A DNA stretch of 40,394 nt, taken from Candidatus Omnitrophota bacterium. GTDB taxonomy: Bacteria > Omnitrophota > Gorgyraeia > Aquiviventales > Aquiviventaceae. Shown piece by piece: positions 9,921 through 36,304 of this stretch. Every line of letters starts with the position of its first letter. Positions within the stretch are counted from its first letter, which is position 1. The stretch is taken from contig JACQWM010000061.1 of the NCBI GenBank assembly GCA_016209275.1, forward strand, positions 1-40,394. Reading direction: 5' to 3'. The translations under genes were made by a program, and so were the position numbers. The notes below the pieces were generated by a model. The model had not been told where the DNA came from, ran no database searches, and saw only the letters and a list, made by a program, of their open reading frames with translations.

Positions 9921-12194
<2,274 letters not shown>

Positions 12195-14386: not shown

Positions 14387-14389
14387 GGG

Positions 14390-14416
14390 TGATTACAGTG
14401 AGCATCACTGTAATCA
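14390..14416. promoter_or_regulatory. Perfect 27-bp inverted repeat abutting the gspF start
   Basis: Two perfect 12-bp arms (tgattacagtga and tcactgtaatca) flank a 3-base loop (gca). The right arm ends at the base before an ATG (14417) and 9 bases before the more likely start (14426). It could be an operator or an RNA hairpin controlling gspF translation. No U-tract follows, so it is not a classical terminator. Confidence 0.6.
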
Positions 14417-14425
14417 ATGTTGAAA

Positions 14426-15649: not shown

Positions 15650-15662
15650 CCTGGAGGCGACG

Positions 15663-18120: not shown

Positions 18121-18136
18121 GAACCGCGCACAATAT

Positions 18137-18281
18137 CACCAATAATGACCAATCACCAAGCTCCAATAATCAAACAAGCACCAATGACCGAATGACCAAT
18201 GACCAAACCAATATTGCGGTTTGGATATTCGGTCATTGATTCATTGGTCATTGTTTGGTTATTGGGATTTGGTCATTGGTA
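18137..18281. repeat. Large imperfect inverted repeat built from aatgacc-type words
   Basis: This AT-richer stretch fills the 173-bp gap between gspK and the gspL-like gene. Many copies of aatgacc/accaatg lie to the left and ggtcatt/cattggt to the right, giving complementary arms of about 60 bp around aatattgcggtt. It is unlike the surrounding coding sequence in composition. It has no U-tract, but could act as a transcript-stabilising hairpin or attenuator. Confidence 0.8.
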
Positions 18282-18293
18282 ATTTTCCTGACC

Positions 18294-19841
18294 ATGGGTT
18301 CAAAGCATCGCTTCCAAGAGGCGCTGTTGCAGCTGGCACTGCAGCCGCGGCGGTTGGCGAAATCGCTCGGCCAGTTGGTGCCTGCCGCCGCGTCCCAAGG
18401 GCTCTCCGTCGCGGTGCTCGACGGGCGGTGGCTGAAGCTGCTGCAAGCCCATGGGCGGTCGGTCGCCAAGGTGGCGGCCATTCCCATCGAGGGCAAGGGT
18501 CCTGAGGAGATCGCGAAGGCTCTGCAGGACCACTGCGCGGCCGAGCACGTGGCACTTCACGACGTCCTGCTCGCCAATCCCACCCATCTGTCCACGATCC
18601 GCGTCTTCACCCTGCCGTCGGTCGATGCGAACGAAATCCGGGACATCGTCGAGCTGCAGGCCGAGAAGCACACGCCCTATGCGAAGGAAGAGATCTTGCT
18701 CGATTTTGCCGTCCTGGATCGCGAGCGCGCCGGCTATTCCCGCGTGCTGCTCGTCATTGCGCACCAAGACGTGGTGCATCGCTCGGTCCGCGTGATGGAG
18801 CTCTCGAACCTGCTGCTGGAGCGCGTCGCCTGCGAGGTCGAGGGATTGGTGCAGTGGTTCCAGATGGTGCGCCGCCGCGTAAGCACTCCGGGGGCGGGGC
18901 CGACCCTCGTGATCGACGTCGACGGCAGCACGACGACGCTGCTGGTGATGCAGCGCGGCCAGCTCGTGTTTCAGCGGAACTTTGCCTTGGGGATGGAGCA
19001 TCTCCATCGCGACCCGGCGGCGGCCAGCCAGCGGCTCATCGCCGAGCTGCAGCGGTCGGTCGAGGCCGTTGAAGCCGAGGGGAGCGCGTCCAAGATCCAG
19101 GACATCGTGATGACGGGCCGGGTGGAGCGGTTGCAGGAGCTCAAGACAGCCGTGGAAAGCGCCTTCGGGCTGCCCGTCAATCTCGCCGCACCTTGGGGAG
19201 CCATGGAGCTCGCCGAGGAAGCCAGCACAGCCGCCGAGCGGCTGCCGGAGATCTCATTCGCGAGCCTCGTGGGGCTGGCCGCGGCCCCCAGCCGCATTGA
19301 TCTGACACCGAAGGCCACCAAATTGCGCCAAGCCTTCGAGGCGCGGGCGCGTTCCCTCGTGGTGATGGCGTGCCAGGGATTGGGGGTGCTGCTGCTTATC
19401 TCCTTGCTGATCATGGGCCGGGCCCAGCAGCAGCATCGCTATTATGAGACGCTGCAAGCCCTCTACAACACCGATGCCTCCGAGGCTTTTGACATCGAGC
19501 AAGGCTTGGCCAGCATCAATTTCATCCGCGAGCGGCTGCGCCATCGCGGCGAGCTGCTCAATCTTGTGGACGGGCTGGTCAAGCTCTCGCCCCGGGAAGT
19601 GCAGTGGGATGCCCTGACCTATACCCAGGCGGAGTCGCTCATCGTGAAAGGCGAATCGAACGCGCTGCCGAAAGTGTATGAGTTCGCCGCGAGCCTCTCG
19701 AACAGCGCCCTGTTCACCGACGTGCCTCCTCCGAAAGTCTCGCAGCGGAAGGGCGGCGCCGACGATGAGCAGGGGATCACGGATTTCGAGCTTCGGTGTT
19801 CTCTGGTTCCGCCGAAGCCCGGGCGCGGGACGCCGGGGTAG
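18294..19841 (+). CDS. gspL: GspL-like protein (PilM-type actin-like domain plus TM and periplasmic domain)
   Basis: 515 residues from ATG 18294; an in-frame ATG at 18255 would put 13 residues in the repeat and is not preferred. The N-terminal 330 residues have an actin-like PilM/GspL cytoplasmic fold: LSVAVLDGRWLKLL, EIRDIVELQAEKHTPY (as in PilM), and the phosphate-loop-like TLVIDVDGSTTTLLVM. A TM helix follows (about 360-380, VVMACQGLGVLLLISLLIMG), then a PilN-type periplasmic coil and ferredoxin-like domain with L-P-EVQWDALTY. It recruits GspE to the platform and contacts GspM, encoded next. I use gspL for the whole, though it is equally a PilM-PilN fusion. Confidence 0.85.
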   Translation: MGSKHRFQEALLQLALQPRRLAKSLGQLVPAAASQGLSVAVLDGRWLKLLQAHGRSVAKVAAIPIEGKGPEEIAKALQDHCAAEHVALHDVLLANPTHLSTIRVFTLPSVDANEIRDIVELQAEKHTPYAKEEILLDFAVLDRERAGYSRVLLVIAHQDVVHRSVRVMELSNLLLERVACEVEGLVQWFQMVRRRVSTPGAGPTLVIDVDGSTTTLLVMQRGQLVFQRNFALGMEHLHRDPAAASQRLIAELQRSVEAVEAEGSASKIQDIVMTGRVERLQELKTAVESAFGLPVNLAAPWGAMELAEEASTAAERLPEISFASLVGLAAAPSRIDLTPKATKLRQAFEARARSLVVMACQGLGVLLLISLLIMGRAQQQHRYYETLQALYNTDASEAFDIEQGLASINFIRERLRHRGELLNLVDGLVKLSPREVQWDALTYTQAESLIVKGESNALPKVYEFAASLSNSALFTDVPPPKVSQRKGGADDEQGITDFELRCSLVPPKPGRGTPG

Positions 19842-19847
19842 CCGAGC

Positions 19848-20444
19848 ATGAAATTTCCGCAACTGCCGTCCCTGCAACCTCGCGAACGGCTCCTCGCCGT
19901 GGTCGGCGGCATGGCCGTGATGGTGCTGCTGCTGGACCGCGCGGTGCTCAGTCCGTGGCTGCGCCAGATCCGCGCCGTCGGCCGGAGTATTACGCAGATG
20001 GAGGAACGATACGTGACGAATCAACAGCTCATGACGCGCAAAGACCGCGTCCTCGTGGATCTGGTGCGGTACCAGCGCTATCTGCGCCCTCCGCAGGCCG
20101 ATGAATCGCAAATGGCCGCACTCCTCAAGGAGGTCGAAGCCATCGCCGCCGACAGCCATGTGACGGTGGGGGAAGTCAAGCCGCTGGCCACGGAAACCAC
20201 CGACGCCGCCACGCGCTATGCCCTGGAGATCCGGTTTGAGTGCACGCCGGAAGATTGGGCCGGCTTCATCTACCATCTGGAGACCTCGCCCGCCCTCTTT
20301 GATGTGCAGCGCGCCGGCCTCTCCCGCAAGCCGGACAGCCAGGATCAGCTCGAAGGCACCCTGCGCATTGCGACCACCGTGCTGCAGCTTGTCCCGGCGC
20401 GCTCGCCGGCTCCCGCGGGAGAACCCCATGCGGCGTCCCCGTAA
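19848..20444 (+). CDS. gspM: GspM/PilO-like platform protein
   Basis: A 198-residue bitopic protein with a short cytoplasmic N-terminus, a TM helix (about 14-33), a coiled coil (about 38-90) and a ferredoxin-like domain (about 95-185), where CTPEDWAGFIYHLETSP matches the PilO/GspM signature of a domain acting on a helix pair. It lies 6 bp after the gspL-like gene, as usual, and would heterodimerise with that protein in the inner membrane. The C-terminus is Pro/Ala-rich. Confidence 0.82.
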   Translation: MKFPQLPSLQPRERLLAVVGGMAVMVLLLDRAVLSPWLRQIRAVGRSITQMEERYVTNQQLMTRKDRVLVDLVRYQRYLRPPQADESQMAALLKEVEAIAADSHVTVGEVKPLATETTDAATRYALEIRFECTPEDWAGFIYHLETSPALFDVQRAGLSRKPDSQDQLEGTLRIATTVLQLVPARSPAPAGEPHAASP

Positions 20445-23113: not shown

Positions 23114-23293
23114 ATGGAGAAACCGTACTTGAACGTTGAAGATGTGGCCAAGCGCTTTGGCGTGAATACCACGACGATTTACCGCTTGGTCAAGCGCGGC
23201 AAGCTGCCGGGCTTCAAGGTCGGCAGCCAGTGGCGGTTCAGCGAGCTGCGCCTGAAGGAATGGGTCGAAAACCACGAGTGGCTCGGCTCATGA
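23114..23293 (+). CDS. Excisionase-type (MerR-like) HTH DNA-binding protein
   Basis: 59 residues from ATG 23114, with agaggaagg ideally placed 4-10 bases upstream. Residues 5-55 fit the helix-turn-helix of the excisionase family (LNVEDVAKRFGVNTTTIYRL, then VKRGKLPGFKVGSQWRF and ELRLKEWVE). Such small proteins bind DNA and often regulate neighbouring genes rather than excise elements. No integrase or att site is visible. It is the first gene of the kinase operon and overlaps the next gene by 4 bp (ATGA), so autoregulation of this operon is plausible. Confidence 0.9.
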   Translation: MEKPYLNVEDVAKRFGVNTTTIYRLVKRGKLPGFKVGSQWRFSELRLKEWVENHEWLGS

Positions 23294-26043
23294 CCATCCC
23301 CTCGCATGCTCATTGGACGCACCCGCGGCGCGCTGAGGCGTGGCGATATCTCATGGTCGCCGGCATTTTCGGGCTGGGGGTGCTGGTGTCGATCGGGCTG
23401 TCCCTGATGGTGCACGATGCCGAGCGCGCGCGGCTGCAAGCGATCTTTGCGGATGCTGCGGGAGATTACGCGCAGGAGCTGCGGCGGCAGCTCCGGAGCA
23501 GCTTGGAGGTTTTGTACGCCATCCGCAACTTCTATGCATCCAGCCGCGAGGTCGAGCGGGGCGAATTCGCGACCTTTACGCGCGATGCGCTGCGGCGCCA
23601 TCCCGAGATCCTCGCTTTGGATTGGGTGCCTCGCGTGGCCGGAGCGGATCGTGCGGTTTTTGAGCAGGCGGTTCGCGCCGAGGGGTTCCCCGCCTTTGAG
23701 GTGACTGAGCAAACCGCCGATCGGTCGTTCGCGCGGGCGGAGGACCGGCCGGAGCATTATCCCATTCTGTTCATTGAGCCATTCGAACCGTACCAGGCGG
23801 CGATGGGGTTTGACATGGGCTCGGAAGCGCGCAGGCGCCAGGCGTTGGAGGCGGCACGAGATGCCGGAGACTGCCGCGCCACCGAGGCGGTCACACTGGT
23901 GGTCGGCGACCCTCAGGCGTATGGGTGGCTCGCGTATCTGCCGATCTATCGCAATGGGACGCCGCATGAGGCCCTCAGCGACCGGCGGGCGAACCTGCAG
24001 GGGTTTGCCATGGTGGTCTTCCGGCTGACCGAGCTGTTTGACAGCGCCTTGAAGGACGTGGGGCTCAAGGGGATGGCCGTGTCCCTGCACGATGACACAG
24101 AGCAGGTCGCAGCCCATCTCCTGTATCATCCGGGCAGCGCGAGCCGCGCCTTGGGAATGAGCCGCCCGCTGCAGTGGCAGACGGCGATTGACGTCGCGGG
24201 GCGGCGATGGAGGTTTGCGGCTGAGTCCACGCCGCGGTTTCTTGCCATCAATCAGCGACGGGGGGCGGTGTTCGTCTTGGGCTTCGGCCTGCTGATGACG
24301 GTGCTGGCGACGGCGTATCTTGGGTTGCTGCTGAACCAAGCCTCCAAAGTCGACCGCCTGGTGAAGCGGCGAACGGCTGAGCTGATCACCATGAATGACC
24401 GGCTCCAACAAGAAGTGGGAGAGCGCCTGGAGGCCGAGGCCGTGCGGCACACGACCGAGCTGCGGTACGAGACCCTCGTTCGCGAGGCGCCTGACCCGAT
24501 CGTGATCCTGGATGCGGCAGGGCAGATCCAAGCATTGAATCCCGCGGCGGAGCGAATCTCAGGGTATGCCGCGCAGGAGCTGCTGGGCAAGCATTTCCTT
24601 CGCAGCGGGGTCCTGAGCGCTGTCGCGCTGCCCAAAGCGCTGCAGGAGTTTACGCTCGTGGTGGCCGGGCAGCAGCGGCCGCCGTTTGATCTGGAGATCA
24701 TCCGCAAGGACCAAGCGCGGCTGATCATGGAGGTGAACCCTCATCTGTTGAAAGATGACCAGCGCATCTTGGGGATCCAGATCATGTTCCGGGATGTGAC
24801 GCAGCGGCGCGCCGCCGAGCAGCAGAGCCGAGCGCAAACCGAGGCGCTTGAACGGATCAACGCGGAGCTGGCCCGGCGCGAGCAGGTCACGCGCAGCCTG
24901 CTTGAGGATCTGCAGCGGTCGAAAAAGGAGCTGGAAACCACCAGCCGGCAGGTGCAGCAGGCCAATCAGAAGCTGCAGCAGCTCGCCCTTCTCAAAGATG
25001 AGTTTGTCGCCAAAGTCAGCCATGAGCTGCGGACTCCGCTGACGTCCATCAAGGAAGGCTTGGGGCTGCTGCTGGACAACGCCTTAGGGGCCACGACGGA
25101 TGACCAACAGGAATTTCTGGCGACGATGGACGGGGACATTGACCGATTGACCGAACTGATCAACAATATGCTCGATATCTCGAAGATTGAAGCCGGGCGG
25201 ATGCGGCTCTCCCGCGCGCGGGTCGATCCCGGGGCGGTCGTGGCGTCGATCATCCGCAGCCATCAGCCCCTGCTGGGGCGACGGACGGTGAAGGTCGAGG
25301 GCGAGGAAGTCCCAGCGTTATTCGCGGATCGCGATCGCGTGATTCAAATTCTGACGAATTTTCTCTCCAACGCCATGAAGGTGACGGATGACGACGGCGC
25401 GATCACGGTCCGTCTGGCCCAGCATGAGGGCATGGTGTCGATCGGGGTCCAAGACGACGGGCCGGGCATGTCGTCGGATGATCTTGGCAAGCTCTTCGAG
25501 AAGTTTTCCCAGGTCGGGGCGGTGAAGGAAGGGCGTCCTCGCGGCACCGGCCTTGGGCTTGTGGTCTGCAAGGAGCTCACCGAATTGCACGGCGGGCGGA
25601 TCGAGGTGGCCTCAGAGCCTGGCCGCGGCTCCACCTTCACCGTGCACCTGCCGATCTACACGGATGAGTTCGTGCTCACAGAAAGCTTTCGTGAGCTCCG
25701 CGAGCTGCTGCCGACGGCGGACGGCGAAACCGTTTGCGCCATCGCCATCGCGCCGGAGCGCCAAGAGCCGCTGGATCGGCTGGCCGAGGAGGTGCGGCAG
25801 CGGGTCCATCGCGGGGATATCATCTTTGCCTATAACCACCACTGGGTGGTGCTGCTCGGGCTGATCCGCCCGACGGACCTCGGGGCCATTGTGAAGCGGC
25901 TGCGGCAGGCGCTGGGCGGGAGCCACCGCCTCGGGTTCGGCGCAGCGCTCTATCCGGGGGACGGCGACAACGGGGATGCGCTGCTGCATGCAGCGGCCGC
26001 GCGGATTGAGCAGCCGTTGCCGAAGCCTGGGGCATCCGCATGA
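23290..26043 (+). CDS. CHASE-PAS membrane histidine kinase with GGDEF-like C-terminal remnant
   Basis: 917 residues from ATG 23290. TM1 is at about 20-41. The CHASE sensor domain (about 75-255) is marked by HPEILALDWVPRV and IEPFEPYQAAMGFDM. TM2 (about 324-347) is followed by coiled coil, a PAS domain (about 390-510), more coiled coil, HisKA with KVSHELRTPLTSIKEG (His578) and HATPase_c ending about 790. A tail of about 125 residues ends RLRQALGGSHRLGFGAALYP then GDGDNGDALLHAAAARI, like the last third of a GGDEF domain but without GG[DE]EF. CHASE domains sense small periplasmic ligands. The kinase has no receiver of its own; four receivers follow. Confidence 0.92.
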   Translation: MTIPSHAHWTHPRRAEAWRYLMVAGIFGLGVLVSIGLSLMVHDAERARLQAIFADAAGDYAQELRRQLRSSLEVLYAIRNFYASSREVERGEFATFTRDALRRHPEILALDWVPRVAGADRAVFEQAVRAEGFPAFEVTEQTADRSFARAEDRPEHYPILFIEPFEPYQAAMGFDMGSEARRRQALEAARDAGDCRATEAVTLVVGDPQAYGWLAYLPIYRNGTPHEALSDRRANLQGFAMVVFRLTELFDSALKDVGLKGMAVSLHDDTEQVAAHLLYHPGSASRALGMSRPLQWQTAIDVAGRRWRFAAESTPRFLAINQRRGAVFVLGFGLLMTVLATAYLGLLLNQASKVDRLVKRRTAELITMNDRLQQEVGERLEAEAVRHTTELRYETLVREAPDPIVILDAAGQIQALNPAAERISGYAAQELLGKHFLRSGVLSAVALPKALQEFTLVVAGQQRPPFDLEIIRKDQARLIMEVNPHLLKDDQRILGIQIMFRDVTQRRAAEQQSRAQTEALERINAELARREQVTRSLLEDLQRSKKELETTSRQVQQANQKLQQLALLKDEFVAKVSHELRTPLTSIKEGLGLLLDNALGATTDDQQEFLATMDGDIDRLTELINNMLDISKIEAGRMRLSRARVDPGAVVASIIRSHQPLLGRRTVKVEGEEVPALFADRDRVIQILTNFLSNAMKVTDDDGAITVRLAQHEGMVSIGVQDDGPGMSSDDLGKLFEKFSQVGAVKEGRPRGTGLGLVVCKELTELHGGRIEVASEPGRGSTFTVHLPIYTDEFVLTESFRELRELLPTADGETVCAIAIAPERQEPLDRLAEEVRQRVHRGDIIFAYNHHWVVLLGLIRPTDLGAIVKRLRQALGGSHRLGFGAALYPGDGDNGDALLHAAAARIEQPLPKPGASA

Positions 26044-27239
26044 CGGGTGCCGTGATCGCGGGGCTGATCGCCGTCGCGGGATACCTCTGGTATCAGCGCC
26101 ATCGCCTGATCCGGCAGGTCGCGCAGCAGACCCGGCGGCTTCGGGAGCAGCTTGAGGAGCAGGAGCAGGCCAATCAGGAGCTCAGCGAGCTGGCAACGCT
26201 CAAGGATGAGTTTCTCGAAATCATGAACCATCAACTGCGCACGCCGGTCACCGCGATGCGGGAGTGCATCGAGCTGTTCCGGGATGGCGTGCTGGGATCC
26301 CTGACCCAGGAGCAAGGCTCCTTCGTCCGCGTGCTGGATCAAAACATGGCGAGCCTCTCAGACCTGGTGGAAGAAGTGCTGGACCTTTCGCTGCTGAAGT
26401 CCGGCCGGCGATTGCTGCAGCGGCAGCCTTCGGATCTCTCAGCGCTCCTCCACGGGTGCGCGGCCCGCTGGGCTGAGCTGGCCAAGCCCACGCGTCTCAT
26501 CGTCTCCGCGGACGGTCTGCCGGCAGCCTACATGGATCCGACCGCGATTGCCGAGGTGGTCAATCATCTCTTGCGCAACGCCATCCGGCACGCGCCGAAA
26601 GGCACCGAGGTGGGCATCCATGCTGCGGCAAAGGGCGAGCAGGTTGAAGTGGCGGTGCAGGATCGCGGGGCCGGCCTCTCTGCCGAGCAGGCGGCGAAAG
26701 TGTTCGAGCCGTTCAGCCACGTGCATACGCCGGACTCCCCCGGCTCGCAGGGCAGCGGCCTTGGCTTGGCGTTTTGCAAGCAGGTGATTGAGCGCCATCA
26801 CGGGACCATCACGGTTGACTCCGCGGTCGGCGACGGCACGACAGTGACCTTCACCGTGCCGCAGGCCGTGCCCCAGGTGCTGCTGGCGGAGGCGTGCCGG
26901 GAGGCCCAAGCCGATGCCGAGGCCGAGAGCGGCCGCTTCGGCCTGCTGCTGGCGGTGCCGGCATCACCGGAGGTTTCCCCGGAGCTCATGCGTCAGGCGG
27001 AAGCGGTGATCAAGCAGCGCACCCACCGCGGCGACTGGTTCATCACGTTTGACGACGGCACCTTCGCCGTTGTGGCGGTGGCCGACCCTGCCGGATGCCG
27101 CGCGATGCTCCAGCGGCTGCGCGGCGTGGCCCGGCAGGCCGGGGCAGCCGTGCGTCTTGCTGGCGCGGTGTTTCCGGATGACGGACGCACGCCCCAGGCG
27201 CTGCTGTTAGCGGCGCGGCAGCAGGCGGCAGCCTCATGA
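26040..27239 (+). CDS. Membrane-anchored histidine kinase with GGDEF-like C-terminal remnant
   Basis: 399 residues. It has one N-terminal TM helix (about 3-18), a coiled coil (20-55), HisKA with EIMNHQLRTPVTAM (His64) and HATPase_c with NHLLRNAIRHAP (N-box), DRGAGLS and GSGLGLAFCKQ. The C-terminal 110 residues (from about 290) repeat the tail of the preceding kinase: THRGDWFITFDD here matches VHRGDIIFAYNH there, and AGAVFPDDGRTPQALLLAA matches GAALYPGDGDNGDALLHAA. No sensor domain is evident, so it probably gets its input from the larger kinase or from the tail. It overlaps both neighbours by 4 bp. Confidence 0.9.
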   Translation: MTGAVIAGLIAVAGYLWYQRHRLIRQVAQQTRRLREQLEEQEQANQELSELATLKDEFLEIMNHQLRTPVTAMRECIELFRDGVLGSLTQEQGSFVRVLDQNMASLSDLVEEVLDLSLLKSGRRLLQRQPSDLSALLHGCAARWAELAKPTRLIVSADGLPAAYMDPTAIAEVVNHLLRNAIRHAPKGTEVGIHAAAKGEQVEVAVQDRGAGLSAEQAAKVFEPFSHVHTPDSPGSQGSGLGLAFCKQVIERHHGTITVDSAVGDGTTVTFTVPQAVPQVLLAEACREAQADAEAESGRFGLLLAVPASPEVSPELMRQAEAVIKQRTHRGDWFITFDDGTFAVVAVADPAGCRAMLQRLRGVARQAGAAVRLAGAVFPDDGRTPQALLLAARQQAAAS

Positions 27240-27637
27240 ACCGGAAGAAGCGCATTCTCATTGCGGAAGATGAGCGGAACGTGCTGAAGATGACAAAGGC
27301 CCGCCTGGAGTTTGAAGGCTACGATGTCGTCACCGCGGAGGACGGCGAGGAGGCCATCGCGCAGGCGTCCTCTGCCGTGCCGATCCATCTGATCTTGCTC
27401 GATATCAAGTTGCCGAAGCTGAATGGCTATGAGGTGTGCCGCCGCCTGAAGACCGATGCGGCCACCAAGAAGATTCCGGTCGTCATTTTCACGGCGTCCG
27501 AGAGCCAGCTGCAGCATTTGGCCAACCGCTGCATTGAGGTGGGTGCTGCCGACTGGGTGAGGAAACCGTTTCGGTCGGCGGAGCTGATGGCGAAGATTCG
27601 TCGCGTGCTCGGAGAGGAGGGATCGGGTGATGCCTGA
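27236..27637 (+). CDS. Single-domain response regulator (receiver 1)
   Basis: A 133-residue CheY-like receiver with the acidic pair in IAEDERNV, phosphoacceptor Asp56 (LILLDIKLP), Thr in VVIFTAS and Lys in WVRKPF. There is no output domain, so it acts by protein contact or as a phosphorelay step. Its start overlaps the kinase stop (ATGA), which points to that kinase as a partner. It is more divergent from the other three receivers than they are from each other. Confidence 0.95.
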   Translation: MNRKKRILIAEDERNVLKMTKARLEFEGYDVVTAEDGEEAIAQASSAVPIHLILLDIKLPKLNGYEVCRRLKTDAATKKIPVVIFTASESQLQHLANRCIEVGAADWVRKPFRSAELMAKIRRVLGEEGSGDA

Positions 27638-28025
27638 GAAGTTCAGGATTTTGCTGGTGGATGATGAGCCCAGCATCGTGAAGATGGTGGGCAAGCGGCT
27701 GGAGGTCGAGGGGTTTGATGTGCTCGTGGCCGTGGACGGCCAGGAAGGGCTGGCGAAAGCCCAGGCTGAGCGACCCCACCTCATCATTCTGGATCTCATG
27801 CTGCCGAAGATGAACGGCTACGAGGTCTGCACGATGCTCAAGCAGGACACCCGGTATCAACAGATCCCGATCATCCTGTTCACCGCGAAGGCGTCGGAGA
27901 AGGATGAAAAGTTGGGGATGGACTGCGGCGCTGACGGCTATATCCGCAAGCCGTTCCGGGCCCAGGAGCTGCTGGAGAAGATCCGAGCGCTCATCGGCGC
28001 CTCATCGCAGCCGACGCAGCCATGA
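27630..28025 (+). CDS. Single-domain response regulator (receiver 2)
   Basis: 131 residues from ATG 27630 (a GTG at 27627 is possible), overlapping receiver 1 by 8 bp. The sequence has LLVDDEPSIVKMV, phosphoacceptor Asp55 (LIILDLMLPKMNGYEVC), Thr in ILFTAKAS and Lys in YIRKPF. All receiver residues are present and there is no output domain. Confidence 0.95.
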   Translation: MPEKFRILLVDDEPSIVKMVGKRLEVEGFDVLVAVDGQEGLAKAQAERPHLIILDLMLPKMNGYEVCTMLKQDTRYQQIPIILFTAKASEKDEKLGMDCGADGYIRKPFRAQELLEKIRALIGASSQPTQP

Positions 28026-28058
28026 CACGAACACCGACACAGAGGAGGGCGCGCCGCC

Positions 28059-28460
28059 ATGGATGATCAACCAAAGAAAAAGCGAATCTTGATTGTCGAT
28101 GACACGAAGGATATCCTGACTGTCGTGTCCCGCCGGCTGCAAAGCTGGGGCTATGAAGCGCTGACCGCCGAGACCGGCGAGGACGGCTTGCGGATCGCCC
28201 AGGAGTGCGTGCCGGACTTGATGCTGCTGGACATCATGATGCCGAAGATGAAGGGGCGGGATGTGTGCGCCAAGCTGCGGGCGGACCCCAAGACCGCGAA
28301 GATCCCGGTGATCTTCCTGACGGCCTTAGGGCTGGCCGACCATGTGAAGGCCGGCATGGATTTGGGCGCGGCGGACTACATCGTCAAGCCCTTCGAGCCG
28401 GCGGAGTTGAAGGAGCGCATCGCCATCGTCCTGGCCCGCGCCGAACATGAGGCCGCCTAA
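28059..28460 (+). CDS. Single-domain response regulator (receiver 3)
   Basis: A 133-residue receiver with LIVDDTKDIL, phosphoacceptor Asp58 (LMLLDIMMPKMKGRDVC), IFLTALGLADH and YIVKPFEP. It is the closest paralogue of receiver 4, on the far side of pilB, with which it shares KGRDVCA and FLTALGLADH. It lies 14 bp before pilB and is likely co-translated with it, suggesting that receiver 3 acts on the pilus motor directly. Confidence 0.95.
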   Translation: MDDQPKKKRILIVDDTKDILTVVSRRLQSWGYEALTAETGEDGLRIAQECVPDLMLLDIMMPKMKGRDVCAKLRADPKTAKIPVIFLTALGLADHVKAGMDLGAADYIVKPFEPAELKERIAIVLARAEHEAA

Positions 28461-28474
28461 GGGAAGAGAGCGCC

Positions 28475-29929
28475 ATGTCCGTGACCATTGAGCTTGAAAA
28501 CTATCTCATTAAGCCCGAGGTGATCCAGCTCGTGCCCGAAGCGCTGGCTCGCAAGCACGTCGTGATGCCGGTGTTTAAAATCGGGGAGACGCTGACCGTG
28601 GCGATGAAAGATTCGCTCGATGTCATCGCCATTGATGGGCTTCGTCTGAAGACGAAGTGCGACATCAAGACCGTCGTGGCTTCTGAGACGAGCATCCGGC
28701 AGGCGATCGATCAGTATTACGGCGCGGCGAGCGCGGCCGCCGCGGCCGGCCCTAAGAAGCCGATGAAGGAAGAGGAGGCTGCCGGGGAGCCTCCAGTCAT
28801 CCGCATGGTGAGCCAGCTGGTCATGGAGGCGGTCAAGGACCGGGCCAGCGACATCCATATCGAGCCGGGCGAAGGCACGCTGCGCACGCGGTTTCGGGTC
28901 GACGGCGTGCTGCGGGAAGTCAGCGGCCCGCCCCTGCATCTGCATGCGGCGGTTGTCTCCCGCATCAAGGTGCTCTCGCGGCTGGACATCGCGGAAAAGC
29001 GCAAGCCGCAGGACGGCCGATTCCGGATGAAGATGGAAGAAACCGACATCGACTTGCGCGTCTCCACCATCCCAACACAGCATGGGGAGAAAGTCGTGAT
29101 GCGCCTGCTGGATAGCTCCAGCGCTCGCTTAAGCCTGGCACAGCTCGGCATGGATGAGGCCACCCGCCACGCGGTGGAGCGATTCATCGCATCGCCGCAC
29201 GGCATTTTCCTCGTGACCGGGCCGACCGGCAGCGGCAAGACCACCACGCTGTATGCCGCCCTGCATCTGATTAATTCCCAGGCCCTCAACATCCTGACCA
29301 TCGAAGACCCGGTGGAATACCAGCTTGCCGGCGTCAACCAAGTCCAGGTCAACCCGAAAGCGGAGATCACCTTCGCCTCGGCGCTGCGCGCGTTTTTGCG
29401 GCAGGATCCGAACGTGATCATGGTGGGCGAAATCCGCGACCGCGAAACGGTGGAGATCGCGGTGCAAGCCGCCCTCACCGGGCATCTGGTCTTTTCCACC
29501 CTGCACACGAATGACGCCCCCAGCTCCTTGACCCGGCTGGTGGATATGGGGGTGGAGCCCTTCCTGATCGCCTCCGGCGTGATCGGCGTGCTGGCACAGC
29601 GCCTCGTGCGCGTCATCTGCCAGGCCTGCAAGGCATCGTACGCGCCGGAGCCGGCGGTGGTCCGCGAGTTTCAGCTGCCGGAGGCGGCGATGCTCACACG
29701 CGGCAAGGGCTGTGCCGCCTGCCAGCAGACCGGCTACAAGGGCCGCATTGGGATCTATGAGCTGCTGGCGATGACCTCTGAGGTGAAGGATTTGGTGGTG
29801 GCGAAGGCCGCGGCGCACGCGATCCGCGAGGCGGCTCACATCCGGACGCTACGCGACGATGGCGTGGCCAAGGCCCTCGCGGGGATCACCACCATCGAAG
29901 AAGTGGTTCGCGTGACCCAACTCGATTGA
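28475..29929 (+). CDS. pilB: Type IV pilus assembly ATPase PilB (GspE family)
   Basis: A 484-residue extension ATPase, shorter than the GspE at 12677 because the N-terminal region keeps only the small alpha/beta part of the E-protein N-domain (about 1-85) and lacks the two MshEN helical motifs. An Ala/Lys/Glu-rich linker follows. The motor core has RASDIHIEPG, Walker A GPTGSGKT (249-256), DPNVIMVGEIRD, STLHTND and a complete tetracysteine motif (CQAC, CAAC). It drives pilin assembly with the PilC protein encoded downstream. A receiver gene lies on each side. Missing MshEN motifs suggest phosphorelay rather than c-di-GMP control of this motor (inference). Confidence 0.94.
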   Translation: MSVTIELENYLIKPEVIQLVPEALARKHVVMPVFKIGETLTVAMKDSLDVIAIDGLRLKTKCDIKTVVASETSIRQAIDQYYGAASAAAAAGPKKPMKEEEAAGEPPVIRMVSQLVMEAVKDRASDIHIEPGEGTLRTRFRVDGVLREVSGPPLHLHAAVVSRIKVLSRLDIAEKRKPQDGRFRMKMEETDIDLRVSTIPTQHGEKVVMRLLDSSSARLSLAQLGMDEATRHAVERFIASPHGIFLVTGPTGSGKTTTLYAALHLINSQALNILTIEDPVEYQLAGVNQVQVNPKAEITFASALRAFLRQDPNVIMVGEIRDRETVEIAVQAALTGHLVFSTLHTNDAPSSLTRLVDMGVEPFLIASGVIGVLAQRLVRVICQACKASYAPEPAVVREFQLPEAAMLTRGKGCAACQQTGYKGRIGIYELLAMTSEVKDLVVAKAAAHAIREAAHIRTLRDDGVAKALAGITTIEEVVRVTQLD

Positions 29930-29936
29930 GGGGATC

Positions 29937-30320
29937 ATGAAGAGCAAGCCGGTGATTTTACTCGTTGATGATGAGCTCTCAATCCGCAAGGTGATCGGCA
30001 AGCGGCTAGCACAGTTCGGCTTTTCCGTGCTGGCCGCCGCCAGCGGCGAGGAGGGCTTGCAGCTCGCCGCAGCGCACCATCCGGATCTGATCCTGCTGGA
30101 CATCATGATGCCGAACATGAAAGGGCGCGATGTCTGCGCGCGGCTGAAGGCCGATCCGGCCACGAACGCGATCCCGGTGATTTTCCTCACGGCCTTAGGA
30201 TTAGCCGATCACATCAAGGGCGGCATGGACCTCGGGGCCGATGATTACATCATCAAACCGTTTGATCCGGACAAGCTGCGGGAGCGCATCATGGTGTGCC
30301 TCGCGAGACATCAACGATAG
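29937..30320 (+). CDS. Single-domain response regulator (receiver 4)
   Basis: A 127-residue receiver with LLVDDELSIRKVIGKRL, phosphoacceptor Asp55 (LILLDIMMPNMKGRDVC), FLTALGLADHIKGG and YIIKPFDP. It sits between pilB and pilC with gaps of 7 and 4 bp. A receiver inside a pilB-pilC operon is unusual. It is closely similar to receiver 3, probably by local duplication. Confidence 0.95.
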   Translation: MKSKPVILLVDDELSIRKVIGKRLAQFGFSVLAAASGEEGLQLAAAHHPDLILLDIMMPNMKGRDVCARLKADPATNAIPVIFLTALGLADHIKGGMDLGADDYIIKPFDPDKLRERIMVCLARHQR

Positions 30321-30324
30321 TCAG

Positions 30325-31530
30325 ATGCCGACGTACCAGTACACGGCGCGCGATCAGCGCGGCCAACAGGTCAGAGGCGCGCAGGCGGCCTCCAGCGTCG
30401 AAGCGCTGGCGGATGCGCTGCGCCGCCGCGGCTACTTGGTGACGACGCACCAGGAAGTCGGGGCCTTCGCTGTGAACGCTGCGCGCGGCCTGCAGCTCTT
30501 CGGGCCGCGGGTCGGCTATGACGATCTCGTCCTCTTGAATGTCCAGCTCTCGAAAATGGTCCAGGTGGGCATTCCGCTCGTCACCGGATTGGAAACGCTC
30601 GAGCAGCAGGCGACGAATCCAGCGCTCAAAACAACGCTCGCCGACGTGGCGCGCCGGGTGCAGGGCGGGGAGAGTTTTTCCGACGCCCTCAGCCACCATG
30701 GGCGCATCTTCTCCGGGCTGTTCATCAACATGGTGCGCGCCGGGGAGGCCTCGGGCAAATTGGATGACATCCTGCGCCGCCTGGCCGACTTCACGAAGCA
30801 CCAAGCGCAGCTTCGCGAGCAGCTGGTCACGGCCATGACCTATCCGATTGCGCTGCTGGCGGTCGGCATCGGTGTCGGCACCTTTCTCATCACGATGATC
30901 ATCCCCAAGTTCATGAAGATTTACCTCGAAGCCGATGTGCCGCTGCCGCTGCCAACACTGCTGCTCTACCAATTGAGCCGGCACTGGTGGCTCATCATCG
31001 GGCTGCTCATCGCCGCCGTGGCACTCCTTGGGTGGTACGTCACGACCCCGGCCGGCCGGCGGCAGCTCGACGCGCTGAGCCTGCGCGTTCCGGTGCTGGG
31101 CGAGCTGGTCCGCCGGGCTGCGCTCTCGCGCTTCGCCCGCACGCTGGCCACGTTGATTTCCAGCGGGGTGCCGATTCTGGAGTCGCTGGCGATTGCGGAG
31201 CTGACCTGCGGCAACGCGGTCATCGCGGATGCGTGCCGGGCGGCCGCCTCGCACGTGAAGGAAGGCGGGTCGCTCGCCGAGCCGCTGAACGCCAGCCGCG
31301 AATTTCCGCCGATGGTCATACAGATGATCCTTGTGGGCGAGGCAGCCGGCACCCTAGATCAGATGCTCGAAGAGGTCGCCAACCACTATGATGAGCTGGT
31401 CCAGCACGGCATTAAACGGGTGATGTCGCTGGTGGAGCCGATGTTTCTTGTCGTGATGGGAGGGATGGTGGCCTTCATCATGGCGAGCTTGCTGCTGCCG
31501 ATGTTTCGGTTGGTCAATGTGGTGAAATAG
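30325..31530 (+). CDS. pilC: Type IV pilus inner-membrane platform protein PilC (GspF family)
   Basis: 401 residues from ATG 30325 (MPTYQYTARDQRGQQ, a typical PilC start). An upstream in-frame ATG inside receiver 4 is rejected. There are two T2SSF domains (VLLNVQLSKMVQVGIPLVTG and FARTLATLISSGVPILESL) and three TM helices (about 170-195, 225-245 and near the C-terminus, MVAFIMASLLLPMF). It pairs with PilB at 28475. It is a paralogue of the GspF at 14426. Confidence 0.95.
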   Translation: MPTYQYTARDQRGQQVRGAQAASSVEALADALRRRGYLVTTHQEVGAFAVNAARGLQLFGPRVGYDDLVLLNVQLSKMVQVGIPLVTGLETLEQQATNPALKTTLADVARRVQGGESFSDALSHHGRIFSGLFINMVRAGEASGKLDDILRRLADFTKHQAQLREQLVTAMTYPIALLAVGIGVGTFLITMIIPKFMKIYLEADVPLPLPTLLLYQLSRHWWLIIGLLIAAVALLGWYVTTPAGRRQLDALSLRVPVLGELVRRAALSRFARTLATLISSGVPILESLAIAELTCGNAVIADACRAAASHVKEGGSLAEPLNASREFPPMVIQMILVGEAAGTLDQMLEEVANHYDELVQHGIKRVMSLVEPMFLVVMGGMVAFIMASLLLPMFRLVNVVK

Positions 31531-31549: not shown

Positions 31550-32029
31550 ATGAAGAGGCGAGGGCTGGGGTGGAGATCGGCGTTTACGCTGATCGAGATG
31601 CTGATTGTGATCATGGTGATCGCGATCTTAATCGGCGTGCTGCTGCCGCAATTCCGCGGGGCCCAGGATGAAGCCGCGATCCAGCGGGCGAAGTCGGAGC
31701 TGCGGACCATCGCGACCGCGATCGAGTCGTACTACATCCACAACAGCAACACGATCGTCAGCGCGCTCACCTCGCTGACCACGGCCAGCCCTCGGATCAT
31801 CAGCTCCATTCCGGATGATCCATTCCGCGCCGGCAGCAATGATTACAGCTTTTACCGCGACACCAACGCCATCTACTACGTGGTCTTCTCCTACGGCCAG
31901 GACCGCGCGGCCGCGATCACCAGCATCACGACCGGCGGCGTGCCGCAGTGCACCGGGGCCAACTGTGCCACGTCGATCGATGATATCTGTGTGACCAACG
32001 GCTCTCCGCCCGGAGCGCCCAACTGTTGA
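31550..32029 (+). CDS. Type IV pilin / GspG-like major pilin candidate
   Basis: A 159-residue pilin with leader MKRRGLGWRSA followed by FTLIEMLIVIMVIAILIGVL and glutamate at +5. The residue before the cleavage site is Ala rather than the usual Gly. The N-terminal helix continues as AAIQRAKSELRTIATAIESYY, like GspG and short type IV pilins. The C-terminal region has four Cys in the last 27 residues, one of them the last residue, which could form disulfides. As first pilin gene after pilC it is the best candidate for the main subunit. A gaggaggag ribosome-binding site precedes the ATG. Confidence 0.9.
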   Translation: MKRRGLGWRSAFTLIEMLIVIMVIAILIGVLLPQFRGAQDEAAIQRAKSELRTIATAIESYYIHNSNTIVSALTSLTTASPRIISSIPDDPFRAGSNDYSFYRDTNAIYYVVFSYGQDRAAAITSITTGGVPQCTGANCATSIDDICVTNGSPPGAPNC

Positions 32030-32030
32030 C

Positions 32031-32399
32031 ATGATGCCCCGTTTAGGTTTTACGTTGATGGAGATGATGCTAGCCCTCGTGCTGTTTGCCACAGGCACGG
32101 TGGCGTGTATGGAGCTCTTGCATCGGGGACAAGCCGGGCAGGCGGATGGAGAAAACGTCCTGATCGCCACGTATGTCGGCCAGCGGCGGCTGGAAGAGTT
32201 GCGCAACACGGCGTACGGCAGCCTGGTCGATGAATCGAAAGCCTCGGTCAGCAGCCCGTCAGGCTACAGCCGGTTCAGCCGGCAGGTGACGGTGACCACG
32301 CCGTATACGGATCTGAAGCAGGTGGTGGTGACGGTCTACTGGACGCAGGCCGGATCTGAGACGAGCATTAGTTTGCAAACATATCGCTCGAATGTCTAA
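32031..32399 (+). CDS. Minor pilin, PilV/GspI-like
   Basis: A 122-residue pilin with leader MMPRLG followed by FTLMEMMLALVLFATGTVA, with glutamate at +5. The segment ATYVGQRRLEELRNTAYGSL resembles the PilV/GspI helix. The rest is a short beta domain (TVTTPYTDLKQVVVTVYW). It starts 1 base after the preceding stop and overlaps the next gene by 8 bp. Likely part of the priming/tip complex. Confidence 0.85.
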   Translation: MMPRLGFTLMEMMLALVLFATGTVACMELLHRGQAGQADGENVLIATYVGQRRLEELRNTAYGSLVDESKASVSSPSGYSRFSRQVTVTTPYTDLKQVVVTVYWTQAGSETSISLQTYRSNV

Positions 32400-32904
32400 G
32401 CTTTTTCAAAGCGCCTTGGGGTTTACGTTGATGGAAGTGCTGATCGTGACGGTCCTCTTTGCCATTTTCATGGGCGCGGTGTATGAAACATCGATCGTGG
32501 GATTGCGGGCCGCCAACAGCGCGGATGAGCGGGAAGACCTCCGCACCCAAATGACGCGCGCCCTCGATCAAATGACCCGCGAGATGGCGTCCTCCTACAA
32601 CGTTGATGTCGCGCAAGATCAACGATTTCAGTTTGACGCCAGGGACATCGACGGCGACGGCTCCAACGACACCAACATCAACTACGTGGTGACCAGCGGA
32701 GATCTGTTGCGGGGATCAACCTTGCTCATCAGGGACCTTTCGTCATTGGACTTCGATTATGTGGACGCCGACGGCGACAGCATGTCAACGCCCGTGGCCA
32801 GCGGAGACCGCGATGAAGTCCGCGTCGTCCAAATCACCATGACGGCAGTCAAAGACCAGGAAACGATCTCCCTCACTGCCGCCGCCTACCTGCGCAACAT
32901 GTGA
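32392..32904 (+). CDS. Minor pilin, PilW/GspJ-like
   Basis: A 170-residue pilin with leader MSKLFQSALG followed by FTLMEVLIVTVLFAIFMGA, with glutamate at +5. The segment LRTQMTRALDQMTREMASS matches the conserved PilW/GspJ helix. The C-terminal domain has two Asp-rich stretches (RDIDGDGSNDTN and DADGDSMS) that look like possible calcium-binding loops. Its stop overlaps the next start. Confidence 0.85.
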   Translation: MSKLFQSALGFTLMEVLIVTVLFAIFMGAVYETSIVGLRAANSADEREDLRTQMTRALDQMTREMASSYNVDVAQDQRFQFDARDIDGDGSNDTNINYVVTSGDLLRGSTLLIRDLSSLDFDYVDADGDSMSTPVASGDRDEVRVVQITMTAVKDQETISLTAAAYLRNM

Positions 32905-33794
32905 TGAGAAACACAGCTCTTAGCTCCCAACTCCCAGCTCCCAGCCAACTCGGTCAGCAGGGCGCTGCCCTCATGGCGACCTTCCTCTTGATGCTCCTCC
33001 TCTCCGGCCTCGCGTTGGCTGTGGGCGTCTTCTCGAACAATAGCCTCGCCACGAGCCGGAGCCAGTTGCTGGATAAGCAGGCCTACTACATCGCCGAAGC
33101 CGGCTGGCAGCGCGCGCGGCAAGCGTTAAGCGCTGGCACGTGGTCGGCGGCCTCTAGCACGGGGAATACGTATAGCGAGTCGTTCGGGGCCGGCGAATAC
33201 AGCGTGACCATCGTTGACGAAACCACGCCCGCGGTTGAAGACGACGACACGGAGTACACGATCACCTCCTCTGGGTATGTGCCGAGTGCGGCCTCCTATC
33301 GATCCCGGCGGCAAGTGGCGGAGACCGACGTGGAGGTCACGGTGACCAATACGAATCAGTCGCTCTCGGCCACCGCCACGGCGTCGTCCACCAACGGCTC
33401 CAACACGGCGAGCAAATCGAAAGACGGCGACACCGGCACCAAATGGCAAGCCGGCACCAAAGGGCCGAATGAATGGCTGAAGATGGACTACGGCAGCGCG
33501 GCCACCGTGAATCGGATGATCATCAAGGATGACGGCAATATCAGCAGCGCGATCACTATCCAGCACTCTGATGACGCCGCCGCGTGGACCGCGGTGAGCG
33601 GCTCATCGATCGTCGAGTCCCCCAACAACACCTTTGACATCAACTTTACTTCGACGAGCCACCGCTATTTCCGCGCGCTGTTTCCTGATGTAGGCAGCGG
33701 CAGCCGCGCCGGGGTCAAGGAGATGGAAACGTACAACATCGCAAGCCGCGCTGTGGAATTTGGCGATGCCGGAACGGTGACCAGCCAATGGTGA
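32904..33794 (+). CDS. PilX/GspK-like minor pilin with C-terminal discoidin-like domain
   Basis: 296 residues from ATG 32904 (GTG 32901 is also possible). The N-terminus is partly written by a 7-bp repeat array, followed by a TM helix (about 21-43, GAALMATFLLMLLLSGLALAV) and the PilX signature YYIAEAGWQRARQAL. After a beta-rich region (about 90-145), residues about 154-278 look like an F5/8 type C (discoidin) domain: TASKSKDGDTGTKWQA, WLKMDYGSAATVNRMIIKDD, ITIQHSDDAAAWTAV and HRYFRALF. Discoidin domains commonly bind sugars or surfaces. A tip pilin carrying one would give the pilus a binding function. The domain call is from motif reading; the pilin part is firm. Confidence 0.82.
   Translation: MRNTALSSQLPAPSQLGQQGAALMATFLLMLLLSGLALAVGVFSNNSLATSRSQLLDKQAYYIAEAGWQRARQALSAGTWSAASSTGNTYSESFGAGEYSVTIVDETTPAVEDDDTEYTITSSGYVPSAASYRSRRQVAETDVEVTVTNTNQSLSATATASSTNGSNTASKSKDGDTGTKWQAGTKGPNEWLKMDYGSAATVNRMIIKDDGNISSAITIQHSDDAAAWTAVSGSSIVESPNNTFDINFTSTSHRYFRALFPDVGSGSRAGVKEMETYNIASRAVEFGDAGTVTSQW
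32915..32949. repeat. 7-bp tandem micro-repeat in the PilX-like gene start
   Basis: Five 7-bp units (agctctt, agctccc, aactccc, agctccc, agccaac) follow the start codon by 11 bp. They are read in frame as the Ser/Pro/Gln-rich leader of the PilX-like protein. Confidence 0.8.
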
Positions 33795-35389
33795 TACCGG
33801 CAGGACGAGGCGCGCCCCGCCCTGACGGGCGGGGCAAGTGGATCGGGCTGGACATCAGGCCGCCAGGTACGCGATGGATTGAGATGGAATCCGACGGCAA
33901 GTCGCTGCGGGTCATCCGCCATGGCACGCAGCTTGGCGAGCTTTCAGGGCGCTCGGTGCATGCGGCCCTAGCCGGCGCTGACGTGGCGATCCGGCGCCTG
34001 GTCATGCCGCTGATGCCTAAGCTCGAGCTGCTTGAGGCGGCGAAGTGGGAATTGAAAGACCAGGTGGCATTTCCCATCCAAGAGGCCGCGCTGGATGTCC
34101 GGGTGCTTGGCGAGGTGGTGGAGCAGGACGTGAAGAAACAGGACGTCTTGGCGGCCGCCGCTCCAAGCCGTGCGGTCAGCGCGCTCATCGGCGAGCTGAC
34201 ACGCGCTCGGCTGCGCATCGAGAGCATCAGCCCGCAGTCGTGCGCGGCCTGGGAGTGCGTTGCAGCGCTCATCCCCGAGGCGCGCCGCGGGTCGGTGGCC
34301 GTGTTGGACATCGGCTGTTCCCAGACCTCAATCGTGATCGCCCATGACGGCGCGCCACAGCTGGTTCGCGAGATCGCCTTCGGCAGCGACCTCTTGACCC
34401 AAGCGCTCGTGGGGACGGTGGCGCTTGACGACGGGGGCGCGGTGACGATCGATCGCCCCATGGCCGAACGGCTCAAGCAGCGGCACGGGATTCTCTCCGA
34501 CGCCGCCGAGGGCAAGACGGACGAAAACATTCCGCTGTTTCACCTGGCGTCCTTGATGCGCCCAGTGATGGAGCAGGTGCTGACGGAGCTCAGCCGCCTG
34601 TTCGATTTTTACAAAACCCAGGGTCACAGCGCCGGGGTCCAGCGCCTGCTCATCTGCGGCATGGACGCGACGCTGAGCAACCTGCAGGTCTCGCTGTCCG
34701 AAGGGCTCGGCATTCCCGTGGAGGTCTTCAACCCGTTGCAGCATCTTCCGCAGCCGTCGAAGACAGCGGCCGATGAGCTGCCTGAGGCAGAGGGATCGCG
34801 GCTGGCGGCGGCGATCGGCCTTGCCCTCTCGCACGGGCAAGGGGTCAACCTGCTGCCGCGGGCGTCCCAAACCGCGAACGCCGCCGGCGATGCGACGGCG
34901 AATCGCACGCCGCGTCTTGCCGCGGCGGTCGGACTCATCGCGCTCGCGGTCACAGGAGGATTCCTGGCGGCCGTCGGGATCTCACAGTGGCACGTGAGCC
35001 GGCAGCAGCGGCTCTGGCAGCAGATCGAGCCGGCCTATACCCAGCGGCTGAACCAGGATGAGGCCAACCGCAGCCTGGATGCCGCCTTAGACATCGTGCA
35101 GACATTTTTTGAGCGGCAGCCGCTCTGGGGGAGCCTGCTGAAAGAGCTGGCGGCTCTTGTGCCGGCGACGATCGAGCTGACCGAGTGTCACATCGAGTTC
35201 GAGGGCGAACGGCGCATCGCGCGTCTCAAAGGGCGCGTGATCGCCGCAGGAAACGGTGGCGGGGTCGCACAGTTAGCGGAAGCGCTTGAGCGCTCGCCGT
35301 TTTTCTCTGATGTTAACCTGATCGATTCCGAAGTCCGTTCCTCAGAGATGGGGGCCTCGACGTTCAGCCTTGAGGCTTTCTTGGAGTGA
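33788..35389 (+). CDS. PilM-PilN fusion (GspL-like)
   Basis: A 533-residue protein. The N-terminal 360 residues form an actin-like PilM domain with WIGLDIRPPG, LEAAKWELKDQVAFPI (PilM signature), VAVLDIGCSQTSIVIA (nucleotide loop) and RLLICGMDATLSNL. A TM helix (about 379-400, AVGLIALAVTGGFLAAVGI) is followed by a PilN coiled coil and ferredoxin-like domain (about 405-533). In most type IV pilus operons PilM and PilN are separate. Residues 8-16 come from a GC-rich hairpin sequence just before the IGLD strand. It would bind PilB on the cytoplasmic side and the PilO-PilP protein in the periplasm. Confidence 0.88.
   Translation: MVIPAGRGAPRPDGRGKWIGLDIRPPGTRWIEMESDGKSLRVIRHGTQLGELSGRSVHAALAGADVAIRRLVMPLMPKLELLEAAKWELKDQVAFPIQEAALDVRVLGEVVEQDVKKQDVLAAAAPSRAVSALIGELTRARLRIESISPQSCAAWECVAALIPEARRGSVAVLDIGCSQTSIVIAHDGAPQLVREIAFGSDLLTQALVGTVALDDGGAVTIDRPMAERLKQRHGILSDAAEGKTDENIPLFHLASLMRPVMEQVLTELSRLFDFYKTQGHSAGVQRLLICGMDATLSNLQVSLSEGLGIPVEVFNPLQHLPQPSKTAADELPEAEGSRLAAAIGLALSHGQGVNLLPRASQTANAAGDATANRTPRLAAAVGLIALAVTGGFLAAVGISQWHVSRQQRLWQQIEPAYTQRLNQDEANRSLDAALDIVQTFFERQPLWGSLLKELAALVPATIELTECHIEFEGERRIARLKGRVIAAGNGGGVAQLAEALERSPFFSDVNLIDSEVRSSEMGASTFSLEAFLE
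33814..33835. repeat. Perfect GC hairpin (9-bp stem, tgac loop) inside the PilM-PilN start
   Basis: gccccgccc-tgac-gggcggggc forms a perfect 9-bp all-GC stem with a 4-base loop. It lies 26 bp after the start codon and is read in frame. It resembles a mobile REP-type palindrome. Confidence 0.8.
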
Positions 35390-35392
35390 CCG

Positions 35393-36304
35393 ATGCTTCC
35401 TCCAGCGCTGGCTCAACTATCTGAAGGGCGCAAGCAGACGGCGCTCATCCTCTGCGCGGCGGTTGCCGGCGCAGTGTTGCTCGCCCAGTGGGTGTGCGTG
35501 CCGGCGGCCTCGCGCCTGAGCACCCAGCGGGCGATGCTCAGCGAGCTGAAGGCAAAGCATGCGCACGCCGCCGCCGTCACGCAGCAGCCGGTTGACGCGG
35601 TTGCGGATCGGGCGCGGCAGCAGCGGCGCCAAGCGCTGGAGGCTCGCCTGGGGAGGAGCCAATCGCTGCCCAAGATCCTCGAAGAACTGCAGCGGCGCGC
35701 CGGAGGGCATCGGCTGGCCGTCGTCATCACGCCGGCGCGGCCGGATGATCCGCGCGCCGCCCACCTGGTGCGCGCCGGGCCTTCGCTCACGCTGCGCGAA
35801 GTGCTCCTCAACGCGCAGCTCACCGGGACCTTGCGCGACATCGCCGAGTTTCTTGGCGCGCTCTCCGGAGCTCCCTTCGCCTCATCGGTGAGAGCGGCAT
35901 CGCTCACTGCGTCAACGGCGGCGCCTGCGCCGTTGCGCGCGAACGTGCAGCTGGCCGTCTATCTTCCCGCGGCCGAGGCTGTGCCGCCTGGCATGCCGAG
36001 CACGGCCGCAGCACCGCTGCCCATCGAATCAAGTGCCACGGCGCGCGCAGCACAGCAAGCGCTGGCCGGCGGCCTAGCCTGGGGGCGGGATCCGTTTCCG
36101 CACAAGGAGGAGCGGGCGGCGGCCGCGGCCTCGCTGCATCTTGAAGGCATCTTGTGGGATGCGGCGATCCCGATGGCCATCATCAACGGCCAGACGCTGG
36201 GCGTGGGCGACACCTTTGAGGGCTACCGCATCACGGCCATCACGAACGATGAGGTCTCCTTGTCCAACGGCGCCGACACGTTCCAACTGCATCTATCCCC
36301 CTAA
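35393..36304 (+). CDS. PilO-PilP (GspM-GspC-like) fusion
   Basis: A 303-residue bitopic protein. TM helix (about 17-38), coiled coil (about 43-100) and a ferredoxin-like PilO domain (about 100-190; LTGTLRDIAEFLGALSGAPF is the PilO signature). After a Pro/Ala-rich linker come GRDPF and residues about 233-303, with LHLEGILWDAAIPMAIING then LGVGDTFEGYRI and V-LSNGADTFQLHL, matching the PilP/GspC homology-region fold. In other systems PilP/GspC contacts the secretin, so the machine should dock onto one, though no secretin gene is in the window. It starts 3 bp after the PilM-PilN stop. Confidence 0.82.
   Translation: MLPPALAQLSEGRKQTALILCAAVAGAVLLAQWVCVPAASRLSTQRAMLSELKAKHAHAAAVTQQPVDAVADRARQQRRQALEARLGRSQSLPKILEELQRRAGGHRLAVVITPARPDDPRAAHLVRAGPSLTLREVLLNAQLTGTLRDIAEFLGALSGAPFASSVRAASLTASTAAPAPLRANVQLAVYLPAAEAVPPGMPSTAAAPLPIESSATARAAQQALAGGLAWGRDPFPHKEERAAAAASLHLEGILWDAAIPMAIINGQTLGVGDTFEGYRITAITNDEVSLSNGADTFQLHLSP

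Follow-up and report, generated by a model that had tools for sequence, protein, structure and literature searches.

A candidate capping pilin with an apparently inserted discoidin module in an Omnitrophota type 4 filament operon

ComZ, a large minor pilin of Thermus thermophilus (PDB 6qvi), combines a GspK-like pilin domain with the absence of Glu5 and holds, between its penultimate and last strand, an extra β-solenoid domain of ~380 residues that binds DNA (PMC6561018). In Streptococcus sanguinis, PilB and PilC are tip-placed minor pilins bearing an adhesive module (vWA and lectin, respectively), PilC being able to bind glycans; these modules have other folds and are grafted on at the C terminus, Glu5 is present in PilB, and the system is a monoderm one (PMC8179133, PMC9934059). 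GspK, the tip pseudopilin of the type II secretion system (T2SS), is located beside GspI and GspJ and has an α-helical domain inserted in its pilin sheet. The covered parts of the modular-pilin survey of Raynaud et al. 2021 do not list discoidin as a module, and no report of a minor pilin with a discoidin/F5/8 type C domain was found in the open-access literature searched, where carbohydrate-binding modules at pilus tips were considered too. Omnitrophota are mostly uncultured and have been proposed to be predators or parasites, and the paper describing them reports discoidin domains in giant open reading frames and, in the parts covered, none in pilins (PMC10066038).

The Omnitrophota pilin analyzed here shares with ComZ the large size, the lack of Glu5 and a GspK-like pilin domain, and its module appears to lie in the corresponding place, but the module is a discoidin domain of ~130 residues and the sequence relation is weak (profile E 0.047). 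It resembles PilB and PilC of S. sanguinis in pairing an adhesive-type module with a probable tip pilin, while differing from them in module fold, in the C-terminal graft, in the Glu5 of PilB and in the monoderm setting. With GspK it has in common a domain that appears to be inserted in the pilin sheet and the company of I- and J-type pilins, whereas the insert of GspK is helical and at another place, and the GspK-specific α-domain (T2SSK_1st) had no Pfam match in our protein.

The window, meaning the whole stretch of 40,394 nucleotides that was analyzed, contains the gene at 32904-33794, as the first-pass annotation had placed it. The open reading frame starts at GTG 32901 or ATG 32904, stops at 33794 and encodes 296 amino acids counted from the ATG; at its 5' end it overlaps the preceding pilin gene, whose stop lies within the overlap, and at its 3' end the start of a pilM-like gene. 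It is the fourth pilin gene of the following operon:

28475..29929, + strand: GspE/PilB-type assembly ATPase with an MshEN domain (Pfam, NCBIfam)
29937..30320, + strand: response-regulator-like single-domain protein (reading of the frame and similarity to other receivers)
30325..31530, + strand: GspF/PilC-type platform protein (Pfam, NCBIfam)
31550..32029, + strand: GspG-like major (pseudo)pilin (Pfam, NCBIfam)
32031..32399, + strand: GspI-like minor pilin (NCBIfam 26 bits, below cut-off)
32392..32904, + strand: GspJ-like minor pilin (NCBIfam 19.1 bits, below cut-off; N_methyl above cut-off)
32904..33794, + strand: modular minor pilin, PilX/GspK/ComZ-type, with discoidin module (296 aa)
33788..35389, + strand: PilM-like protein with a PilN-like C-terminal region (Pfam, NCBIfam; PilM above cut-off)
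35393..36304, + strand: GspC/GspB/PilP-like periplasmic protein (weak Pfam and NCBIfam matches)

The protein itself consists of a short leader, a long hydrophobic helix, a small β-sheet, a domain of ~130 residues and a short tail, and its AlphaFold2 model, built from 15 sequences, is of moderate overall quality (mean pLDDT 71.8, pTM 0.54). Its parts are:

32904..32963, + strand: prepilin leader, with Gly as last residue before the hydrophobic helix and Ala instead of Glu at mature position 5 (read from sequence)
32964..33134, + strand: N-terminal pilin helix, aa 21-77 (model)
33168..33332, + strand: pilin β-sheet strands, aa 89-143 (model; the orthologue core matches pilin structures)
33354..33743, + strand: F5/8 type C (discoidin/CBM32-like) module, about aa 151-280 (Pfam, phmmer, fold comparison)
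33759..33791, + strand: conserved C-terminal tail, consensus LGxGxFxTxW, present in a domain-free orthologue too (low model confidence)

The domain of this pilin is a genuine F5/8 type C (discoidin, CBM32-like) domain. Pfam PF00754 (F5_F8_type_C) scores 48.3 bits against a cut-off of 28.2 (E 1.3e-12, residues 158-262), and this is the only PF00754 domain found in the 1.8 Mb genome. Among PDB sequences, the best phmmer matches of the module are chitosan-binding CBM32 modules of Paenibacillus (E 5e-10), and the modelled domain matches CBM32 structures with E down to 5e-8 in Foldseek and, over aa 151-285, with Z 12-14 in a second-look aligner (best 14.3, rmsd 2.1, 115 residues), giving a predicted galactose-binding-like jelly roll. 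The discoidin call of the first-pass annotation, which had named the absence of such a fold as its refutation, is therefore upheld by the Pfam score and by the fold match of the model. The best matches in both sequence and fold, DD1 and DD2 of Paenibacillus sp. IK-5 (4zxe, 4zz5), belong to a secreted chitosanase/glucanase, whereas our module sits in a pilin, and the likeness seen here is one of sequence and fold. CBM32 domains mostly bind sugars and their fold is typical of carbohydrate binding, so a glycan is probably the ligand, as a best guess, and the pilin is likely an adhesin.

Assignment of the remainder to the pilins rests on several features together. PilX_N reaches 16.7 bits on the protein, below its cut-off of 25.5, and NCBIfam T2SS_GspK 17.8 bits, far under its cut-off of 130, so that by sequence the pilin part is a weak PilX. 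The PilX-type label first given to the gene gains support from its place in the operon, from the absence of Glu5 and from the pilin fold predicted for a domain-free orthologue. Neither PF07963 nor TIGR02532, which we take to be the equivalents of the N-methylation motif IPR012902, matched the protein at E<=1 in the Pfam and NCBIfam scans. By the criterion of Raynaud et al. 2021, the protein has an extra domain and no match to the N-methylation motif, and their survey may have missed such pilins because the motif goes unmatched though the extra domain is present.

Mature position 5 is Ala in this pilin, whereas the three pilins encoded just upstream (G-, I- and J-like) have Glu5 within an FTL[IM]E start. 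Glu5 is likewise absent from the pilin cores of all 35 slot proteins examined, the sites having been read by eye in the 8 rows where the automatic rule chose an upstream residue. According to a 2023 review, the subunit that caps the tip complex has no Glu5 (PMC10191384), and our pilin is encoded after the I- and J-type minor pilins, as the last in a G-I-J-X gene order. The tip position predicted in the first pass fits both features, and a location at the tip is probable from the missing Glu5 and from analogy; the most fitting description would be a capping pilin of ComZ/GspK type whose discoidin module occupies the position that the extra domain has in ComZ.

The module appears to be an insertion and not a plain C-terminal addition because a pilin-type tail of about 11-14 residues follows it. 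The pattern LGxGxFxTxW was found in this tail in 17 of 17 full-length proteins, the final residue being Trp in 16, and in the domain-free orthologue of 142 aa (L125, genome G314), located in the same operon type, the pilin sheet runs directly into such a tail with no domain between. Likewise, the last 12 residues include a Trp in 8/8 forms with the discoidin at a second site and in 9/9 proteins of β-solenoid or similar type (both described below), compared with 0/3 of the other pilins of the window operon. The conserved tail and the domain-free orthologue led us to discard a plain C-terminal fusion. The pilin-then-discoidin layout proposed at first is thus right in that the discoidin domain comes after the pilin part, though the domain is not the end of the protein. 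As regards a ComZ-type insertion, the tail is conserved and present without the module, yet is not confidently modelled as a strand (pLDDT about 38-57 in the models of both the window protein and the domain-free orthologue); we infer that it is the last strand of the pilin sheet, and in sequence terms the discoidin module would be inserted between the β-sheet and this tail.

The model of the domain-free orthologue, for which only core pieces were given as input, has a pLDDT of 85.2 and shows a helix and three strands, leaving the tail unresolved. Foldseek returned no match to it at E<=0.001, and the second-look aligner placed its core with minor pilins: the Thermus competence pilin 6qvf (Z 9.2), EpsI/EpsJ 2ret (Z 8.9) and GspI 3ci0 (Z 8.3). 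ComZ 6qvi gave the highest identity among these matches (27%, rmsd 1.9 over 78 residues), at a Z of 7.9, near the level that may reflect merely a common arrangement.

Relatives of the pilin were sought in several ways. A first scan of genome contigs with the single protein as query gave no relative, and a search of 147 related genomes gave matches in 59, many covering one half only. A family profile at E<=1e-15 had matches in 57 of 384 genomes of the class, which, counted by reading the matched ranges, comprise 17 full-length proteins with discoidin (9 family codes), 36 matches confined to one half, pilin or discoidin, three partial cases (G026, without an internal pilin part; G010, a fragment at a contig start; G037, split over two contigs) and one protein without the domain (G314). 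A phylum-wide draw of 384 genomes yielded 15 matches at 1e-25, all in genomes already found. The G026 protein (L123, C75:8859-9584) has its pilin helix and sheet partly missing and domain and tail intact, which could reflect gene decay or faulty assembly. At G267:C25:63654-63983, a PilX-type N-terminus lies within an open frame of 21,741 aa and possibly overlaps or belongs to this giant frame.

The operon context is conserved. Among 30 loci returned, the 12 with full-length matches on named contigs are all from Omnitrophota (the same genomes as 12 already counted, not additional ones), and in 12/12 the J-like gene is directly upstream and the PilM-like gene downstream, with GspE, GspF and GspC-like genes present wherever the contig extends to them. 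A second form, in which the discoidin domain follows an earlier strand, occurs in 10/384 genomes; a PilM neighbour was seen in 7 of the 8 second-site sequences read, and the one such relative scanned passed the cut-off for PilX_N (34.5 bits) and scored 55.7 bits for PF00754. Still other proteins have larger domains in this slot. Among seven scanned, DUF7305 was above cut-off in two and below it in one, and others showed weak bactofilin-like or ice-binding-like matches; from these profile matches and the ComZ precedent, the domains are presumably of β-solenoid type, and a PDB search with one such relative gave no match. Of 13 stretches with larger-domain genes, five (L141, L142, L145, L146, L147) keep the gene order around the slot for GspE, GspF, the G-like pilin and PilM, and the rest hold parts of the operon or a different arrangement.

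A GspF tree built on 20 operons plus one paralogue leaves 10 of 18 inner branches open. It pairs the domain-free operon with a discoidin operon as sisters (100/99) and, likewise, a second-form operon with a β-solenoid-type one (100/100). Such sister pairs of unlike slot state suggest loss or exchange of the module within families. A tree of 31 discoidin domains recovers each of the two forms as one clade (99/94 and 100/97), and an AU test did not reject both forms together as a single clade (p 0.257). That the same operon slot holds a discoidin domain, a different domain or none suggests an exchangeable binding end of the filament.

The ComZ-like architecture and the β-solenoid-type modules of some relatives, together with the presence of ComEC in the genome, would also suit a competence pilus like that of Thermus, whose module binds DNA or a DNA-associated polymer. 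ComEC, however, is on another contig, none of the operon genes was recognized as a competence gene, and a CBM32 fold usually goes with carbohydrate binding, which makes DNA uptake quite improbable.

Whether the domain varies between relatives, a check proposed together with the original call, can now be answered: it varies in identity, place and presence. In 23/28 pairs of the window's family and in 34/36 pairs among other families, conservation is higher in the pilin core than in the module, with mean identities, module versus core, of 45.7 versus 53.9% and 46.5 versus 58.1%, respectively; greater variation of the module is expected of a receptor, but also of a loosely constrained domain. A module serving solely as a structural cap that blocks the addition of subunits above the tip, with a vestigial ligand site, would agree with the view that the inserted domain of GspK caps its filament (PMC7248040) and with the one orthologue that does without any module. 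A pure cap needs no exchange, however, and unrelated modules recur in the slot in addition to being more variable than the core; we consider this explanation very improbable.

Because the operon has neither secretin nor PilT, both of which occur elsewhere in the genome, a pilus as opposed to a T2SS pseudopilus is not proven. In the pseudopilus case, the target of the tip module would be secreted cargo instead of an outside surface, for instance exoproteins that are glycosylated or bound to polysaccharide; the operon components indeed score as GspE-, GspF-, GspG- and GspI-like, the last protein is GspC/GspB-like, and in T2SS, secreted effectors are contacted directly by the HIJK complex (PMC10191384). 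What renders it unlikely is the PilM-type protein with its above-cut-off PilM score, the MshEN domain of GspE, the varied large modules in one slot, which suit display better than a single cargo, and the presence in the window of another type 4 filament locus with a canonical GspK. Retraction of a pilus is possible through the PilT-type ATPases elsewhere in the genome, which are not tied to this operon. A PilY1 search gave no match in this genome, nor in any control genome, so PilY1 may nonetheless be encoded.

Upstream, two kinases, one of them a CHASE-PAS histidine kinase, lead into the filament operon together with several response regulators of a single domain (23230-30320), and similar receivers or kinases adjoin most related operons whose contigs extend that far. 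Together with the MshEN domain of GspE, the response regulators and the CHASE-PAS histidine kinase point to regulated assembly.

The second filament locus (12202-20444) comprises GspE-, GspF- and GspG-type frames, more pilin-like frames and the canonical GspK (T2SSK_1st 76.5 bits), the only one of its frames scanned against profiles; because of this GspK, the contig holds two distinct filament systems. Directly before it are F-type ATPase subunit genes (delta/OSCP-like, alpha, gamma, beta; 7690-12194). In many Velamenicoccia, T4aP clusters adjoin a non-respiratory F-type ATPase, and attachment to host cells has been suggested (PMC10066038). The arrangement seen here resembles that reported for the 'symbiotic' ATPase clusters of Omnitrophota. 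At 1-6063, truncated by the start of the contig, lies the end of a protein of >2,000 aa that contains repeated Ig/Reelin-like segments.

Taken together, the discoidin domain and its fold class, the operon, the insertion geometry in sequence and the different modules in the same slot form the basis on which we read the protein, with a probability of roughly 0.6, as the capping pilin of an Omnitrophota type 4 filament with an inserted CBM32/discoidin module for a surface ligand. Filament assembly would begin with this pilin, together with the GspI- and GspJ-like ones, and the pilin would sit on top of the tip complex, so that the module would be displayed at the filament end, facing the surroundings. 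There it may bind a surface ligand, for which a glycan carried by another cell or by extracellular polysaccharide is the likeliest candidate.

More tentatively, and with somewhat less than even confidence, we propose that the fourth minor pilin of this one conserved filament operon in Omnitrophota may be a receptor-exchange slot, occupied by discoidin at either site, by a β-solenoid-type domain or by nothing, and swapped between close relatives, so that the tip module would set the host, prey or polymer of each lineage. The finding would extend the modular-pilin idea to capping pilins without Glu5, a class that a motif-based survey would tend to miss. With a small, probably expressible tip module, its natural variants and a domain-free orthologue, binding by Omnitrophota would become testable by glycan arrays without culture.
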